Origin: Nonomuraea terrae
GTDB taxonomy: Bacteria > Actinomycetota > Actinomycetes > Streptosporangiales > Streptosporangiaceae
DNA: 64,000 nucleotides
Reading direction: 5' to 3'
NCBI RefSeq assembly: GCF_004348995.1
Contig: NZ_SMKQ01000015.1
Location: 1 to 64,000 of the forward strand
Below, one piece after another: positions 22,073 through 42,312 of the stretch. Each line of letters opens with the position of its first letter. Positions within the stretch are counted from its first letter, which is position 1. The notes under the pieces are model-generated. The model was given only the letters and a program-made list of their open reading frames with translations. It did not search any database and had not been told where the DNA came from. The position numbers and the translations under genes are program-made.

Positions 22073-22246
22073 ATGACGAAAAATCCGGACATTTCTCCTG
22101 TCTCGATCGTGTTGAGTGTGCAATCAGTATTGTGATTAGGTAAAGGTGCATTACGGGGGCTTTGCCATATCGCTGTGCGCGGAAGGTGCCGGCGTGGCGA
22201 CCGTTCCCGAGCGCGTCTTTTCCCTCACGGAATGGAGCACTCTCAC

Positions 22247-23410
22247 ATGGTTTCTGTTGGGTTAGCTCGTAAGGCCGCCGCATTCGGCGCGTCGGCCGCG
22301 GTGCTCGCCACCCTGTCCGCGGGCCTGGTCGCCGGTCCCGCGCAGGCGGCGACCGCCGGCAAGGCGCCGAAGGTCTCGGTGTCCGCGCCGAAGGCCACGC
22401 CAGGGAAGTTCGAAGGGTCCTGTCCGGCCAAGGTCGACTTCTCGGCCAAGATCAACGTCCCGGTCAAGGGCAAGACGGAGCTGGCCTACCGCTGGCTCCA
22501 CGGTGACGGGTCCAAGAGCAAGGTCTACACGGTCAAGCTCAAGGGCAAGGGCGTCAAGTCGGTGACGGTCAAGCAGTCCGTCACCTTCGAGGAAGACGTC
22601 AAGGGCTGGGAGGCCATCCAGATCCTCGGCCCGAAGAAGGTCACGTCCAAGAAGGGCTACTTCTCCGTCTCCTGCCAGGAGCCGCTGAAGGAGGTCCGTA
22701 CGCACCTCGACGTGTCGGTCACGGCCCGTGCCTGGGCCACCCCGAGCTCGTACGCCGGCCGCTGCACCCCCGGCAACAAGATCGGCTTCGTCGGCCTGAT
22801 CGAGGCCGACCGCCCGACGTGGGTGCGTTACCGCTGGCTGCTCAACGGTGACGCGGTCGACTACGGCAAGGTCAAGGTCCACGACGCCCGCAAGGTGGGC
22901 TTCGCCTTCTCGCCGCGGCACAGCCAGCGTGGCTGGGCGCAGTTGCAGATCCTGAGCCCTGACGGCTCGTACTCGAACCGGGCCGGCTACAAGGTCTGGT
23001 GCAAGGACTACACCCCGCACAAGCCCGAGGGTCACGGCACCAAGGTGTCCGCCTCGGCCTCGGTGAGCGTGGACGACAGCTGCGCCGTCAAGGCGAGCGG
23101 CTTCGTCTCGGCGACCGGCGCGGGCAAGGTGTCGTACACCTGGCGGGTGAACGGCAGCTCGCTCGGCGGCGGTGAGGTCTACTTCGGCCGCGGTGGCGGC
23201 ACGAAGAGCATCCCCGGGGTCGCCACCACGGTGAGCGGCGAGGCCGTCAAGGGCGGCACCGTCACCCTGTCGGTGACCGGCCCGAACAACAGCAGCTCCG
23301 ACAGCGAGAGCTACCGGTCCTGCGGGGTCACGACGCAGGCTGAGAAGCCGGCCGAGACGCTGAAGGTGGAGGCGACTCCGACGCCTTCGGCTTCCACTCC
23401 GGCCGCCTGA
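22247..23410 (+). CDS. Exported protein with three Ig-like repeats
   Basis: 387 residues. ATG 22247 is chosen for its GGAG site nine bases upstream and because it starts a clear signal peptide ending near AQAA (about residue 38). The mature part holds three divergent units of 90-100 residues (about 45-150, 155-265 and 270-365). Each has an early Cys, a central YRWL or YTWR strand, and a late Y-x-V-x-C or YRSCG strand. Units 1 and 2 share QIL-P before the last strand. A Pro/Thr/Ser tail ends the protein with no membrane anchor or LPxTG. Function unknown. Secreted binding protein is a guess. Leucine 6 is a TTA codon (22262-22264). Confidence 0.75.
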   Translation: MVSVGLARKAAAFGASAAVLATLSAGLVAGPAQAATAGKAPKVSVSAPKATPGKFEGSCPAKVDFSAKINVPVKGKTELAYRWLHGDGSKSKVYTVKLKGKGVKSVTVKQSVTFEEDVKGWEAIQILGPKKVTSKKGYFSVSCQEPLKEVRTHLDVSVTARAWATPSSYAGRCTPGNKIGFVGLIEADRPTWVRYRWLLNGDAVDYGKVKVHDARKVGFAFSPRHSQRGWAQLQILSPDGSYSNRAGYKVWCKDYTPHKPEGHGTKVSASASVSVDDSCAVKASGFVSATGAGKVSYTWRVNGSSLGGGEVYFGRGGGTKSIPGVATTVSGEAVKGGTVTLSVTGPNNSSSDSESYRSCGVTTQAEKPAETLKVEATPTPSASTPAA

Positions 23411-27074: not shown

Positions 27075-27596
27075 GTGGGGCTCTCAGCGGTGACCGTGCT
27101 CGGCGTCGACCGGCCCGGCGTGATCGCCGCGGTCACCGGTTCGCTGGCCGAGTGCGGAGCGAACATCCAGGACTCGACCATGACGTTGCTCGGCGGGCAC
27201 GTGGCGATGATGCTGCTGGTGTCGGGCGACCTCGACCCCGCCGAGCTGAGGAAACGCCTGGGCGCGCCCGACCTGGTCGTGACCGCCTCCGCCATCGACG
27301 CGCGCCGTCACTTCTGCGACGACGGCGGCGGCCCCGAAGGAGTCGGCTACGTGCTGACCGTCCACGGCCCCGACCGGCCGGGCATCATCTCCGCCATCAG
27401 CGCCGTGCTCGCCGCCGACGGCGGCAACATCACCGGCATGAGCACCCGGCTGACCGGCCGCCTCTACGTGCTGATCGCCGACGTCGACCTGCCCAAGGAC
27501 GTGGACGTGGCGGCGCTCATGCGCAGGCTCGCGGCCGTCGGCGCGAGCCTCGACTCGCAGATCACCTTCCGCCCCGTCGAACCGGACCTGCTGTGA
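27075..27596 (+). CDS. Double ACT-domain protein (GcvR-like)
   Basis: 173 residues: two ACT domains, about 5-80 (LGVDRPGVIAAVTGSLAECG) and 92-165 (VHGPDRPGIISAISAVLAAD). Both have the conserved DRPG loop that binds amino acids. This is the glycine-cleavage repressor-like layout, with no DNA-binding domain. GTG start with AAGGGG upstream. The stop overlaps the next start as GTGA, so its product is made together with the deformylase-like protein. Confidence 0.85.
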   Translation: MGLSAVTVLGVDRPGVIAAVTGSLAECGANIQDSTMTLLGGHVAMMLLVSGDLDPAELRKRLGAPDLVVTASAIDARRHFCDDGGGPEGVGYVLTVHGPDRPGIISAISAVLAADGGNITGMSTRLTGRLYVLIADVDLPKDVDVAALMRRLAAVGASLDSQITFRPVEPDLL

Positions 27597-28108
27597 AGGG
27601 AACCCCGCGGCAGGTGCTCGGGGCGCCCCACCCGGTGCTGTCGGCCATGGCAGAACCGGTGGACCCGACCGCGCCCGAAGTCGTGGCCGCGGCGGCCGAC
27701 CTTCTCGCGACCCTGCGCAACGAGCCCGCCACGGCGGGCCTCGCGGCCCCCCAGATCGGCCTGAGCTGGCGCCTCATCGCCTTCGACGCCGGTCGCCACC
27801 CCAAGGCCCGGTCAAGGGCCGGAGAGCTCGTGGTGGCCAATCCACGGCTCGCCGGCGCCGCCCACTGGAACGAGGGGCGCGAGGGCTGCGCCTCCGTCGC
27901 GGGGCTGAGCGCGGACGTCCCCCGCGCGACGCGTATCACCGTACATGGGCATTTGCCAGGTACGGGGGAGGCCGTCACCATCGAAGCGGATGCCTTCGAA
28001 GCCCGCTGCATTCAGCACCAACTGGACCATCTGGACGGTCTACTCTTCTTGGACAGAGTGCCCGGAGTCCTATCACTTCACACTAGTCTTCACAGTTGTG
28101 ACGCTTGA
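27593..28108 (+). CDS. Peptide-deformylase-like protein with altered catalytic motif
   Basis: 171 residues of the deformylase fold. Motif 1 GLAAPQIG (49-56) is intact. Motif 2 is EGCAS (97-101) with the metal Cys99. Motif 3 reads QHQLDH instead of QHELDH: metal ligands His142 and His146 are kept, but catalytic Glu143 is Gln (codon CAA, 28019-28021). In true deformylases this Glu is essential. The protein may be a pseudoenzyme or carry a changed activity. GTG start overlaps the ACT gene. A UAA-anticodon tRNA begins 50 bp downstream. Confidence 0.8.
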   Translation: MKGTPRQVLGAPHPVLSAMAEPVDPTAPEVVAAAADLLATLRNEPATAGLAAPQIGLSWRLIAFDAGRHPKARSRAGELVVANPRLAGAAHWNEGREGCASVAGLSADVPRATRITVHGHLPGTGEAVTIEADAFEARCIQHQLDHLDGLLFLDRVPGVLSLHTSLHSCDA

Positions 28109-28145
28109 TGCGAAGTTGTGCTCCTCGGAAGCATGGTCCGTTTCG

Positions 28146-28151
28146 TATGAT
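28146..28151 (+). promoter_or_regulatory. -10 hexamer of the tRNA gene
   Basis: TATGAT, a near-consensus -10, ends six bases before the first base of the tRNA (28158). Transcription would therefore start at or within a base of mature position 1. No good -35 is found at 16-18 bp. Confidence 0.55.
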
Positions 28152-28157
28152 TGCGGC

Positions 28158-28230
28158 GCCCCCGTAGCCCAATGGCAGAGGCAAACCCCTTAAAAGGGTT
28201 GACGTGCGGGTTCGAATCCCGCCGGGGGCA
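28158..28230 (+). tRNA. Class I tRNA with UAA anticodon (isotype uncertain, Leu by anticodon)
   Basis: 73 bases with a full cloverleaf. Acceptor GCCCCCG/CGGGGGC (7 perfect pairs), D-arm from 28167 with GG, anticodon stem AACCC/GGGTT, loop CTTAAAA giving anticodon UAA (34-36), variable loop GACGT of only five bases, T-arm GCGGG-TTCGAAT-CCCGC, and discriminator A73. CCA is not encoded. UAA reads UUA leucine codons, but bacterial tRNA-Leu (including bldA) is class II with a long variable arm, so this is not a standard tRNA-Leu. A standalone gene with its own promoter, just after a deformylase-like gene. Confidence 0.85.
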
Positions 28231-28782
28231 CTGCCTCTTTACCTTCCCTTTAGGTCACTGACCTGGAGGTTTACCGCGATCGACGGACGGACTCGCGCAG
28301 CCGATATCGAGTTGTTACTCAGTAGGGGCGGCGCGACGTGCTTCAGCCCCGGTGGCGTAGGGGCTGAGCACGCGGTCAGGAGTCTCCCTCTCGGGGCCGG
28401 ACAGGCAGTCCATGTTTGCGCGGCTGAAAACTTATCGTGTTCCTCTCGATATTGACTTCGCGCCGGTCATCTGCAATCTCTGGGGAGAGCCCCGTCGTTT
28501 CTTTCCGTGAAAGGTTGACTACGCTTCACGGCGAGACTTTTCGACGGTGAAAACCCGGTCGGCGCCTATAGTCGCCTGCCCGGTCCGGCCCGCCGCCCCC
28601 GGCGGGCGTCACCCGAGGGGCTCCCATGACGAAGATTTCTCCGTCTCGGGATGACCATGGGAACTCCACGGCGGGCATGTTCGTTGTGAACGCAGCCGTA
28701 GGTTTCGTAGGAACATCTGACTGAGCGTCACAGTTGACCAAGGTGCCGCCGGCCCCGCAGGTCGGCGACACAGGAGGCAGCG
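28231..28782. other. 552-bp stretch without a certain gene
   Basis: Between the tRNA and the Bax-inhibitor-type gene. It holds an inverted repeat CCGTGAA (28505-28511) and TTCACGG (28525-28531), a possible -10 TATAGT (28567-28572), and a possible 32-codon gene (28626-28724, listed separately). The part from 28231 to 28500 shows no coding frame on either strand and no riboswitch that I recognise. A frame over the tRNA is a shadow. Confidence 0.6.
28626..28724 (+). CDS. Possible 32-residue peptide
   Basis: ATG with GAGGGG seven bases upstream, and a promoter-like TATAGT 54 bp before it. The predicted product starts MTKISPSRDDHGNSTAG and has a hydrophobic second half (MFVVNAAVGFVG). Too short for family assignment. 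Third-position GC is only moderate. It could instead be leader sequence of the gene at 28783. Low confidence. Confidence 0.3.
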   Translation: MTKISPSRDDHGNSTAGMFVVNAAVGFVGTSD

Positions 28783-29574
28783 ATGCAGAGCAAGAACCCC
28801 GTATTCAGCAGGTCGCGGCAGCAGGCCGCGACGGGCTGGGCCGGCCCCACCCCGTCCCCCGACCAGTTGCAGAACATGTACGACACGCCGTCGTACACCC
28901 CGTCCCGGCCGGCGTTCCGCACCATGACGCTCGACGACGTCGTGGTTCGAGGGTTCCTGACCCTCGGGGCGCTCGTCGTGGCCGCCGCCGCGGCCTGGTA
29001 CCTCCAGGTCCCGCCGATGATCGCCATCGGCGCCGCCGTCGTGGCCCTGGTGCTGGGGCTGATCGCCTCGTTCACCATGAGCACCAACCCGGCGCTCATC
29101 CTCGCGTACGCGGTGTTCGAGGGCGTCTTCCTCGGCACGATCAGCTCCCTCTTCGAGGGCATGGTCAGCGGCATCGTGCTGCAGGCGGTGCTCGGCACGG
29201 CGTTCGCCTTCGGCGCGGTGCTGACCGTCTACTCGCTGCGCATCGTGCGCGTCACACCCAAGCTGGTGAAGTTCACCATCGCCGCCGGCCTCGCGGCCCT
29301 CGCCCTGGTGCTGGTCAACCTGGTCGCCGGCTTCTTCGTCGACGGCGGCCTGGGGCTGCGCACCGACTCCCCGCTCGGCTGGATCTTCAGCGCCGCGATG
29401 ATCCTGCTCGGCTGCTTCTTCCTGCTGCTCGACTTCGACTCGATCGAGCAGGGCGTCCGCCAGGGCGCTCCGGAGAAGTTCGCCTGGCAGTGCGCGTTCG
29501 GCCTGACGCTCAGCCTCGTGTGGATCTACCTCGAGGTGCTGCGGCTGGTCTACTACTTCAACAGCAGCGACTGA
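28783..29574 (+). CDS. Bax inhibitor-1 / YccA-family membrane protein
   Basis: 263 residues. A soluble Pro/Ser-rich N-terminus (about 1-50) is followed by seven transmembrane segments. Seen: MTLDDVVVRGFLTLGALVVA, AYAVFEGVFLGTISSLFE, and the final segment LVWIYLEVLRLVYYF, all typical of the actinobacterial Bax1-I group. Members are pH-sensitive calcium leak channels in other bacteria, but the role here is unknown. AGGAGG precedes the ATG. A terminator follows. Confidence 0.88.
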   Translation: MQSKNPVFSRSRQQAATGWAGPTPSPDQLQNMYDTPSYTPSRPAFRTMTLDDVVVRGFLTLGALVVAAAAAWYLQVPPMIAIGAAVVALVLGLIASFTMSTNPALILAYAVFEGVFLGTISSLFEGMVSGIVLQAVLGTAFAFGAVLTVYSLRIVRVTPKLVKFTIAAGLAALALVLVNLVAGFFVDGGLGLRTDSPLGWIFSAAMILLGCFFLLLDFDSIEQGVRQGAPEKFAWQCAFGLTLSLVWIYLEVLRLVYYFNSSD

Positions 29575-39600: not shown

Positions 39601-39824
39601 CTGAGCGGCTCGATGCGGAACGGATCGTCGCGCGGCTGCGGGACCGGCTGGGCGAGGAGGTGTTCGAGCGGGTCGTCGCGTCAGGACAGCGGGAACTCGG
39701 CGAACACCTCCCAGGCCCCCTCCGGCGAGGGCCCGGCGTACAACCGGCCGCCCAGCGCCTCCACCCGCTCGGCCATCCCGACCAGACCGAACCCGCCGCC
39801 CAGGCCGGCCAGCCGCGGGTCTGA
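36612..39824 (+). CDS. AfsR/SARP-type transcriptional regulator (winged helix-BTAD-NB-ARC-TPR)
   Basis: 1070-residue pathway-level activator. An OmpR-like DNA-binding domain (FGVLGPLRV, then VAEPKVRALLADLL) is followed by BTAD (about 95-240), NB-ARC with Walker A GPGGVGKTS (about 283-291) and LLILDNCEHLL, and a long TPR region (about 600-1000). A Gly/Ala-rich insert of about 25 residues follows the Walker B Asp. GTG 36612 starts the classic MLRFGVLGPL, with no ribosome site. The last 48 codons run antisense through the histidine kinase gene. Targets unknown. No biosynthetic cluster lies in the window. Confidence 0.88.
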   Translation: MLRFGVLGPLRVRTEDGRPVEVAEPKVRALLADLLVHGGGPLSADRLIEDLWGERAGRNPRGTLQARVSELRRALGDRGAVLHGPGGYRLAGCDCDAGRFRALVGRRSRDPRVRAGELGQALALWRGPAYAEFADAEFVRAEAAGLEEARLAALEEQAELHLDLGEPVDLGSLVARHPLRERLVAAHMRALYRGGRQGEALAAYAELRGRLAEELGVDPSPELTALHQAVLRQDTALHRPVASAVRSGPTNLPAPLTELIGRDADVADVRGLLAAARLVTLTGPGGVGKTSLALEAARGVTAPDGVWLVELAGAVDPSEAVAAVLGVRDDDTLPLASRLAGALTGKDVLLILDNCEHLLDPATRARGGGAEANPPHGSGATHDGAGGSTVPGLVAELLRAVPGLRVLATSREPLGVTGERVRVVPPLPEPEAVRLFTARAGVEPDETVATVCRRLDGLPLALELAATRVRALGVHELADRLDDRFRLLSAGTRDAPARQRTLRAVIDWSWELLGEAERVVLRRLAVHADGCTLEAAEEVSAEPGVDVLDTLARLVGRSLVVRVPGPRFRLLESVAAYCVERLREAGEDDLVRERHARYYTALAERADLRGPGQREWLERLDAETANLRRALAGPYPLRLVNALAWYWILRGRLREARRSLTTAINAPEATTRVTGAGGDAGRAAVWLAGVESLIGETAVSVRREELDLAGEALADWLLTHVRWAYGDHAAHEAAAGRALAAYEALGDRWGIAAALCLRAKLAVGRGDLAAMERDGERGLARFRELGDGWGQIEAMDVLDRAAEIRGDYPKAARLRREGLRLAEALGFEVSYKLAGLGRIALLKRDYAAADDLHERARRLAVAQSYKSAEENALLGLAMSARRQGRYDEAEAYLLPVLGWLRQVRGTSGIAFIMAELGFAAEQRGDARLALARHREGHEAARATADPRAVALALEGLAGALSLSGVETSSDAWVIRAAELVGVAGAIRQEVGVPLPAAERLDAERIVARLRDRLGEEVFERVVASGQRELGEHLPGPLRRGPGVQPAAQRLHPLGHPDQTEPAAQAGQPRV

Positions 39825-40823
39825 GCCGAACCCGAAGTTCCGCACCCGCAGCACCGCGCTGCCCTCGTGGCGGCGCAGGGACGCCTCGACCCAGGCGGCC
39901 CGCGGCGCGTGCTTGCGCACGTTCGTCAGCGCCTCCTGGAGCACCCGGTGCACGGTCGTCATGACCTCCGGCTGCAGCGTGCGGTCGTCGAAGCCGGAGC
40001 CGATCTCGAAGGCCACCTTCGGCCCGTCGGCGGAGAACCGGTCGGTCATCATCCGCAGGTCGGCCATGGTGACGCCCGGCGTGCGGGCCGCGTCGTCCTC
40101 CGTGCGGAGCACCGTGACCATGCGCCGCATCGAGGTCAGCGCCTCCGACCCGGCCGTGGCGATCGCGTCGAGCGCGGGCGAGACGGCCTCGGGCTTGGTC
40201 GCGGCGACCGTACGCGCGGCCTGGGCCTGCACCACGATGCCGGTGATGTGGTGGGCGACCAGGTCGTGCAGCTCCCTGGCGATCTCCAGGCGTTCGGCCC
40301 TGCGCACCGCGTGCACCGCCTCCACCCGGCGTTCCTGCTGGAAGCGGAGGTAGCCGCCGATCCCGGCGGCCGTCGACCAGCCCACGAACAGCAGGAAGGA
40401 GAACGCCAGGCCCGAGCCGTTGTAGTCGCGCGCGCTCGCCTCGGTCATCAGCACGACCAGCGCCACGATCGACAGGACGACCGCCTGGCGTACCGGCTCC
40501 ACGTGCCGCAGGACCCCGATGAGCAGGATGAGCAGCGCCCCCGTCTCCGCGGCCCCCGGTATGCCCCTGAAACCGGTGAAGCCGACCAGCAGCGACGTGG
40601 CGAGCGACAGCGCCAGCATCACGGCGAACCCGCCCAGCCGCCACCTGCGCCGCAGGATCACGGCGACCATGCCGACCGCGCCGCACACCGGCACCACCCA
40701 CTGGAGCGTCCCGACGACGACGCCGAGCAGGACGTCCATCAGCAGCATCATGGCCAGGCAGCCGAGCATGGCGATCTCGCCCAGCCGCCGGACCCAGTAC
40801 ACGATGCGCTTGGAGTCGGCCAC
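39681..40823 (-). CDS. Sensor histidine kinase (HisKA_3 type)
   Basis: 380 residues. Four to five membrane segments (about 17-155) with almost no loops, then the dimerisation helix RAERLEIARELHDLVAHH (phospho-His186) and a HATPase domain with VLQEALTNVRKHAP and GLGGGFGLVGMAERV. This is the NarL/FixJ-partner type. GTG 40823 is chosen because sequence before it is shadow. No response regulator gene is adjacent, which is unusual for this type. Its 3' 144 bp overlap the SARP gene on the other strand. Confidence 0.85.
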   Translation of the reverse strand: MADSKRIVYWVRRLGEIAMLGCLAMMLLMDVLLGVVVGTLQWVVPVCGAVGMVAVILRRRWRLGGFAVMLALSLATSLLVGFTGFRGIPGAAETGALLILLIGVLRHVEPVRQAVVLSIVALVVLMTEASARDYNGSGLAFSFLLFVGWSTAAGIGGYLRFQQERRVEAVHAVRRAERLEIARELHDLVAHHITGIVVQAQAARTVAATKPEAVSPALDAIATAGSEALTSMRRMVTVLRTEDDAARTPGVTMADLRMMTDRFSADGPKVAFEIGSGFDDRTLQPEVMTTVHRVLQEALTNVRKHAPRAAWVEASLRRHEGSAVLRVRNFGFGSDPRLAGLGGGFGLVGMAERVEALGGRLYAGPSPEGAWEVFAEFPLS

Positions 40824-40959
40824 GGTGTCGAGCCTAGGCCGCGAGTCGTACCGCTCGTATCCACCGTTCGGCCGAACAGCACGGCCGCGAACCCGTCCTT
40901 CAGCGGAGGCGGCGGCCTGGGCGCGTCGCGGATGCTGGAGAGGTCGGAAGGAGATGGAC

Positions 40960-41046
40960 ATGCTGGCCATCGGAATCGTGCTGCTGGTCGTCGGAGTGCT
41001 GCTGGCGCTGGCCGACCCCGTGCTGCTCTCCCGTACGGACGCCTGA
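40960..41046 (+). CDS. 28-residue single-span membrane peptide
   Basis: ATG with AAGGAG six bases upstream. The product MLAIGIVLLVVGVLLALAD is one transmembrane helix, followed by a short tail (PVLLSRTDA). The strong ribosome site and full hydrophobic span support a real small protein. Function unknown. It lies between the histidine kinase and metB genes, rightward, and may be divergent from the kinase. Confidence 0.55.
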   Translation: MLAIGIVLLVVGVLLALADPVLLSRTDA

Positions 41047-41172
41047 CGACCTTGGGCTCGCGTGCGCAGGGCGCGCGGGCCCCAGGTGGGCCGTCGGGGG
41101 ACGGCGGCCCTGAAGCGGCCCGCGACTCGGTGGGGACCGAGGCGCGGGCCGGCTTCCACTAACGTGTGGTGT

Positions 41173-42312
41173 ATGAGCAACGGTTTTGAGACCTTGGCCA
41201 TTCACGCAGGTCAGGAGCCCGACCCGCTGACCGGCGCGGTCGTGCCGCCGATCTACGCCACGTCCACGTACAAGCAGGACGGCGTGGGCGGCCTGCGTTC
41301 CGGATATGAGTACAGCCGTTCGGCGAACCCCACCAGGACCGCGCTCGAAGCCGCGCTGGCCGCCGTGGAGGGCGGGGCGAGGGGGCTGGCGTTCGCCTCT
41401 GGGCTCGCCGCCGAGGACACCCTCCTGCGCGCGGTGTGCAAGCCGCAGGACCACGTGATCATCCCCAACGACGCGTACGGTGGCACGTACCGCCTGTTCG
41501 CCAAGGTGCACGAGGCCTGGGGCCTGCACTACGACCCCGTGCCGCTGCACGACCTCGACGCCGTGGCCGCGGCCATGACGCAGAAGACCAAGGTCGTCTG
41601 GGTCGAGACGCCCACCAACCCGCTGCTCGGCATCGCCGACATCGCCGCCCTGGCGCAGCTCGCCCACGACAACGGGTCGCTGCTGGTCGTCGACAACACC
41701 TTCGCCTCGCCGTACCTGCAGCAGCCCATCGCGCTGGGCGCCGACGTGGTCGTCCACTCGACCACGAAGTACGTCGGCGGCCACTCCGACGTGGTCGGCG
41801 GCGCGCTCGTGGCCGCCGACAGCGGCCTCGGCGAGCAGCTCGCCTACCACCAGAACGCGATGGGTGCGGTGGCCGGGCCGTTCGACGCCTGGCTCACGCT
41901 GCGCGGCCTGAAGACCCTCGGCGTCCGCATGGACCGCCACTGCGACAACGCAGAACGCGTCGTCGACCTGCTGCTGGCCCACCCGCGTGTGACGGAGGTG
42001 CTCTACCCGGGGCTCGCCGAGCACCCTGGCCACGAGGTGGCGGCCAAGCAGATGAAGAGGTTCGGGGGCATGGTGTCGTTCCGCGTCGCCGGAGGCGAGG
42101 CGGAAGCCGTGGAGATGTGCAACCGGGCGGAGCTGTTCACGCTGGGCGAGTCGCTCGGCGGCGTGGAGTCGCTGATCGAGCACCCCGGCCGCATGACGCA
42201 CGCCTCGGCCGCGGGGTCGCCGCTGGAGGTGCCCGCCGACCTCGTACGCCTGTCGGTCGGCATCGAGACTGTCGACGACCTGCTCGCCGACCTCACCCGC
42301 GCGCTGGGCTAG
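41173..42312 (+). CDS. metB: Cystathionine gamma-synthase
   Basis: Forms cystathionine from an activated homoserine and cysteine in methionine synthesis. 379 residues. PLP lysine K199 in HSTTKYVGGHSDVVGG, YSRSANPTR, and DNTFASPYLQQP. Related lyases cannot be fully excluded. No ribosome site precedes the ATG, but TAACGT at 41160-41165 lies seven bases upstream, so transcription probably starts at the ATG (leaderless). With the cbs gene at 34.3 kb both directions of transsulfuration are represented. Confidence 0.9.
   Translation: MSNGFETLAIHAGQEPDPLTGAVVPPIYATSTYKQDGVGGLRSGYEYSRSANPTRTALEAALAAVEGGARGLAFASGLAAEDTLLRAVCKPQDHVIIPNDAYGGTYRLFAKVHEAWGLHYDPVPLHDLDAVAAAMTQKTKVVWVETPTNPLLGIADIAALAQLAHDNGSLLVVDNTFASPYLQQPIALGADVVVHSTTKYVGGHSDVVGGALVAADSGLGEQLAYHQNAMGAVAGPFDAWLTLRGLKTLGVRMDRHCDNAERVVDLLLAHPRVTEVLYPGLAEHPGHEVAAKQMKRFGGMVSFRVAGGEAEAVEMCNRAELFTLGESLGGVESLIEHPGRMTHASAAGSPLEVPADLVRLSVGIETVDDLLADLTRALG

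Follow-up and report, generated by a model that had tools for sequence, protein, structure and literature searches.

What does a tRNA with the anticodon UAA and a variable loop of only five nucleotides do in an actinomycete? In textbooks, bacterial tRNA-Leu belongs to class II and carries a long variable arm, and a tRNA of the other shape lies at positions 28158-28230, on the forward strand, of the window, by which we mean the whole stretch of 64,000 nucleotides of Nonomuraea terrae DNA analysed here (contig NZ_SMKQ01000015.1). A sequence-only reading of this stretch had called the tRNA unlike any standard bacterial tRNA-Leu and had considered a new isotype, a use outside translation or an alternative means of decoding UUA. 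We hold it very probable that Nonomuraea here has its ordinary tRNA-Leu(UAA), one with a class I scaffold, charged by LeuRS through a leucine core, reading UUA as leucine and constituting the only UAA tRNA found in the genome.

The tRNA gene and its upstream region

The gene was identified by two routes, which bear out the complete class I tRNA with UAA anticodon first read from the sequence: ARAGORN called a tRNA with anticodon taa at 28158-28231, and Rfam model RF00005 matched 28158-28230 over its full length, scoring 60.1 bits where the gathering score is 29 (E 1.6e-10). Without CCA the tRNA measures 73 nt and folds into a 7-bp acceptor stem, a 3-bp D stem, a 5-bp anticodon stem and a 5-bp T stem, with the discriminator A73 at position 28230. 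The anticodon TAA (28191-28193, forward strand) is preceded by T33 and followed by A37 and A38, and the variable loop GACGT (28201-28205, forward strand) ends in U48, so that a Levitt pair A15-U48 is possible. Since this loop has 5 nt, the tRNA is of class I. Class II tRNAs are described as having a variable arm longer than 10 nt, and allo-tRNAs as having a 9/3 or 8/4 acceptor/T composition and a longer variable arm (PMC7609411); the present tRNA, with its 7/5 composition and 5-nt loop, is neither a textbook class II tRNA-Leu nor an allo-tRNA. The A37 flanked by A36 and A38 fits the A36A37A38 motif that TrmL is reported to recognise in leucine UUR tRNAs, together with i6A37 (PMC9976931).

Covariation over 31 distinct homologous sequences supports the fold. 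Base pairing was standard in 99.5% of the 620 base-pair cells and two-sided changes occurred in 12 of the 20 cloverleaf pairs, an outcome that none of 500 shuffles reached, and sliding the partners by 1-3 columns in the same alignment lowered pairing to 35-59%. Because pairing is kept by compensatory change beyond what any shuffle attains, the cloverleaf is not a product of chance. Wrong base calls at the variable loop, raised at the outset as a possible undoing of the observation, are ruled out by independent genomes, among them that of Nonomuraea gerenzanensis, whose replicon NZ_LT559118.1 carries an identical copy (73/73). In a separate search, identity was 96-100% over 84-93 bases in 36/36 genomes of the genus.

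How might this tRNA be expressed? Six nucleotides upstream lies the sequence TATGAT (28146-28151, forward strand), a putative -10 box that is kept, at the same distance, in the window and in all 22 named loci compared, with a single varying base in the spacer. A -35 element was not recognised, and a scan with the sigma-70 consensus returned 0 promoters in 27900-28800. The conserved box suggests that the tRNA would have a promoter of its own and a transcript with hardly any leader, starting at about the 5′ end of the tRNA.

Directly upstream (27593-28108, forward strand) there is a peptide-deformylase-like gene, as previously noticed, now supported by a Pfam PF01327 match of 123.4 bits. Active peptide deformylases carry an HE.DH motif with a catalytic Glu. 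The product of this gene has HQLDH in its place and thus lacks the catalytic Glu, as do its counterparts in 22/22 loci (L086-L107; 16 from Nonomuraea, where its best relatives are found, and 6 from other genera), while L108, a distant relative, has HETDH. On these residues the protein can fairly be called inactive-looking, and it is possibly a non-catalytic paralogue. The motif QHQLDH is kept in the same 22 loci, each with a UAA tRNA within 1.3 kb downstream, an arrangement that lends some substance to the earlier option of a tRNA serving peptide or lipid modification, for which the deformylase-like protein would then be the partner. This adjacency is, however, biased, because the loci were found by searching with the deformylase-like gene; moreover, the -10-like box separates the two genes, many other families of the class also have class I UAA tRNAs, and the searches of the genome and genus gave no second UAA tRNA that could serve the existing UUA codons. 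We therefore regard a role outside translation as highly improbable and the deformylase-like gene as probably only a neighbour of tRNA-Leu(UAA).

Probable leucine identity and the reading of UUA

The 9.69-Mb genome of the window (G000, 469 contigs) gave 63 tRNA matches in an Rfam scan; all were fetched and their anticodons read, and the tRNA at 28158-28230 was the only one with UAA. In a pattern search wide enough for variable loops of either class, the class I UAA string turned up in 54/54 Nonomuraea genomes, and among the matches in these genomes no class II UAA tRNA was read, the remaining ones being chance matches or overlaps with other tRNAs. The search for a separate bldA-type tRNA that had been recommended thus left the tRNA at 28158-28230 as the bldA equivalent, that is, the only UAA tRNA of the genome, within two limits: a deviant second copy could escape the pattern, because this requires T33 and a GGTTCRANYCC T arm, and another could lie in a gap of the own genome, because the assembly consists of 469 contigs.

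The other leucine tRNAs of the genome belong to both classes, class II comprising CAG, GAG and UAG, and further class I tRNAs with leucine anticodons being CAA (C414), CAG (C406) and AAG (C55). The class I tRNA-Leu(CAG) (C406:10332-10601, L037) is an extra copy, besides the class II tRNA-Leu(CAG) on C422, and adjoins an unusual second tRNA-Pro(TGG). The tRNA-Leu(AAG) is part of a tight array of six ARAGORN calls (C55:10167-10666, L042), namely Ala, class I Leu-AAG, Glu, Arg, Tyr and one doubtful, which likely derives from a mobile element; it recurs in G028 (L125) and, by pattern string, in G002.

Could the UAA tRNA likewise be a mobile-element tRNA and not the main UUA decoder of its host? 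A class I leucine tRNA in the C55 array of the same genome and the class I tRNA-Leu(taa) and tRNA-Leu(caa) of Cronobacter phage LPCS28 give this idea some footing, but the presence of the class I UAA tRNA in 54/54 genomes of the genus and the same upstream gene in 22 named loci leave it with very little probability. The phage tRNA-Leu(taa) resembles that of Nonomuraea in being of class I with the same type of D arm (83.1% identity over 79% of the query) and differs in being phage-borne in a gammaproteobacterial host. In LPCS28 it adjoins the class I tRNA-Leu(caa) (L238:1495-1652).

Which amino acid would this tRNA carry? In E. coli, leucine identity is reported to need A73, A15-U48, G18G19 and A20a, the long variable arm being dispensable (PMC9976931). 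We applied a register-aware test for a leucine core, defined as a 3-bp D stem with 13.22 unpaired, A14-A15, A20a, U48 and A73, to the 56 distinct tRNA sequences called by ARAGORN in the own genome, one doubtful call included. The core was present in 7/56, which are exactly those with leucine anticodons (4 of class I, among them the tRNA at 28158-28230, and 3 of class II), and in 0/49 of the others; this final version of the test was set up after a cruder D-loop test had passed tRNA-Lys(UUU), Asn, two Gly and one Thr and had missed Leu(UAG). The genome encodes one LeuRS above the TIGR00396 cut-off, other matches there lying below it. To judge from these sequence features and from the leucine anticodon UAA, we infer that the tRNA is charged by LeuRS. 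The single enzyme would recognise it through A73, A14/A15, U48, G18G19, A20a and the 3-bp D stem, and the long variable arm would not be needed for charging; as LeuRS most likely reads the conserved core, the arm would be free to vary.

Armless leucine tRNAs have precedents of other kinds. A minimal E. coli tRNA-Leu without variable arm is reportedly charged by LeuRS (Larkin 2002, cited in PMC9976931), although that molecule is engineered whereas the armless form of Nonomuraea is natural and conserved. Human mitochondrial tRNA-Leu(UUR) also lacks a long variable arm and is described as drawing its identity from A73 and A14 (PMC9976931), but its anticodon branch is partly unfolded, in contrast to the regular, G+C-rich cloverleaf of the Nonomuraea tRNA.

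A tRNA of another isotype that merely bears a leucine anticodon would insert a different amino acid at UUA, as missense or codon reassignment. We compared codons in well-aligned context between the window, a 100-kb stretch of N. gerenzanensis and three genomes of the genus represented by 400 kb apiece, with ORFs called by a GC3 heuristic and with comparisons that share columns. UUA faced leucine in another codon in 29/43 comparisons and a different residue in 14/43 (I 4, V 3, P 2, S 2, and A, F and T 1 each); in 22 further comparisons UUA stood on both sides. For reference, TTG faced leucine in 710/849 and another residue in 139/849, and CTA in 130/160 and 30/160, respectively, so that the non-leucine share is larger for UUA, albeit in a small sample with shared columns. 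Between the window and N. gerenzanensis alone, a very small sample, UUA met A, T, L (CTG), a gap and UUA once each. UUG, whose only cognate tRNA found in the own genome is of class I as well, faced leucine in 38/38 comparisons from the window to N. gerenzanensis and in 29/34 in the reverse direction.

These comparisons support a reading of UUA as leucine in the genus and, indirectly, the charging of the tRNA with leucine, and in this respect the UUA decoding considered earlier holds good. The class I scaffold, an A73 common to other isotypes and the 14/43 non-leucine comparisons are what another isotype could claim; yet the combination of D arm, U48 and A73 occurs in 7/7 leucine tRNAs and 0/49 others of the genome, and no residue stands opposite UUA nearly as often as leucine. 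Codon reassignment was rejected on the leucine core and on UUA facing mainly leucine, the new isotype fell with the same 7/7 and 0/49 distribution, and we rate an other-isotype tRNA overall as very unlikely. A tRNA-Leu(UAA) would thus read the rare UUA codon as leucine. In the window, 5 TTA codons were counted in 48 ORFs called by the GC3 heuristic, which misses some genes; this agrees with the earlier mention of UUA in at least five genes, although the TTA in 39681-41201, the fourteenth codon (codon 14) of a long ORF, may precede the true start. Near the 5′ end of 22175-23410, N. gerenzanensis and G010 share a TTA with the window where G006 has CTG.

Two structural classes of UAA tRNA

How far does the class I form extend? 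By pattern reading, a UAA string of class I was present in 71 of 150 genomes of the family and one of class II in none; 22 had other matches only and 57 no match. In the cases checked, the absence of a match did not mean that a UAA tRNA is lacking: when covariance model R1 was run on 15 of these 57 genomes, a class I UAA tRNA with C33 ranked first or second among the hits in all 15, and the pattern had missed it because T33 is fixed there. A relaxed pattern, with T33 still fixed, retrieved a true UAA tRNA in 1/32 no-match genomes (G042). In the C33 tRNAs of the 15 genomes the loop reads CCTAAAA (L260, L262-L265, L267, L268, L271-L277 and L283). U33 is nearly universal in tRNAs, and C33 may weaken or tune the reading of UUA.

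A sample of 158 genomes of the class gave, by pattern, 94 with a class I UAA string (variable region of 5-9 nt; 86 plus 8 members of the family), 38 with a class II string and 26 with neither; among the latter, a class I UAA tRNA was later recognised in G042 and in the family members G115, G121 and G131. Confirmation by ARAGORN was obtained for 19 class I loci that do not belong to the family and for 20 distinct sequences of class II, and variable regions of 7-9 nt were seen in L190, L189, L191 and L172. The class II set includes 13/13 genomes of genus g20, which we take to be Streptomyces from its bldA-like sequence. Neither pattern matched a UAA tRNA in G055, G235, G249 and G282 (family f19), G044, G260 and G280, and the best covariance-model hits in these seven were class I tRNA-Leu(CAA) in five, tRNA-Leu(UAG) in G260 and tRNA-Asn in G280; a class II tRNA with C33 may nevertheless be present in them.

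With the leucine core present, and with class I UAA tRNAs in 54/54 genomes of the genus and 94/158 of the class, the description as unlike any standard bacterial tRNA-Leu cannot be upheld: the class I tRNA-Leu(UAA) is normal for its actinomycete group, though against the textbook rule. The two classes are not simple arm deletions of each other, because positions 12 and 13 differ: all 31 aligned class I sequences have C12 and C13, whereas class II mostly has G12 and a varied position 13. The bldA tRNA is described as the only UUA decoder in Streptomyces (PMC4932002), and it shares with the Nonomuraea tRNA the anticodon UAA, the status of only UUA decoder, A14/A15, U48, A73 and a 3-bp D stem; the bldA-like sequence L221, however, has a long variable arm, G12-C23 and G13, as opposed to 5 nt, C12-G23 and C13. 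UUA decoders of the bldA type are dispensable for growth but required for development or antibiotics, and the Nonomuraea tRNA might have a comparable regulatory role. A review argues that the developmental role of bldA perhaps does not extend beyond Streptomycineae (PMC4255298). The wide occurrence of the armless UAA tRNA, together with the class swaps of tRNA-Leu(CAA) described below, bears on extrapolating the bldA/UUA switch from Streptomyces to antibiotic producers such as N. gerenzanensis.

Short-loop leucine tRNAs have been mentioned in mycobacteria, as a clustered tRNA-Leu(TAG) (PMC6582537) and by implication (PMC11541572); they have another anticodon there, or one not spelled out, and are not described as UUA decoders. 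Our literature search, to which tRNA databases and most subscription papers were external, retrieved no explicit description of a class I tRNA-Leu(UAA) as a common actinomycete form or as UUA decoder, or of the interchangeability of the two classes. The class I tRNA-Leu(UAA) itself may already be familiar to specialists; the interchangeability is less ordinary.

Exchange of tRNA-Leu(CAA) classes within the genus

Does the class of a leucine tRNA vary within Nonomuraea? A pattern admitting T32 and C32 found tRNA-Leu(CAA) of class II in 11 and of class I in 27 (19 with C32, 8 with T32) of 39 genomes of the genus, the 63% complete G018 giving no match. No genome of the 39 had both classes by this pattern, which would miss a copy with a deviant T arm, and ARAGORN confirmed 10 class I and 10 class II genes in fetched loci (L289-L308). 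In 7/7 class I/class II pairs compared, homology of the upstream flanks ended only some 50-75 bases short of the tRNA, and 5/7 showed homology downstream too; therefore, one locus holds different classes. Among the 20 loci, L303 and, to the greatest degree, L304 have less sequence in common with the rest. Because the two classes were never seen in one genome by pattern and share a locus in the 7 pairs, we conclude that, at the level of sequence, class I and class II tRNA-Leu(CAA) replace each other within Nonomuraea, an exchange that also speaks for the class I UAA tRNA being an ordinary leucine tRNA. We mapped the class label on a tree computed for 30 genomes from the 1.5 kb preceding the UAA tRNA, a single locus and not a species tree. 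The label requires 7 changes there, of which starred branches force at least 5, and is not significantly clustered (163/500 shuffles as low).

Temperate actinophages are reported to integrate into a host tRNA gene while carrying a replacement tRNA, and phage Gaia to carry a tRNA-Leu-CAA (PMC10865867); by analogy, such integration is a possible mechanism of the exchange. It is conceivable, though we would lean against it, that the structural class of tRNA-Leu is an exchangeable module throughout Actinomycetes, repeatedly replaced, as for CAA at the same locus, and perhaps carried by phages. If this were true, UUA could be read by tRNAs of two structures, the bldA switch of Streptomyces using one of them, and UUA-dependent expression might be tuned differently by the class I form, to which the C33 variant of sister genera belongs. 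Together, the widespread armless tRNA-Leu(UAA) and the CAA class swaps amount to a natural experiment that could show which demands LeuRS and the ribosome make on the long arm. A CAA pattern with T32 fixed also matched tRNA-SeC genes in Nonomuraea genomes (L239, L240, L242, L243 and L245).
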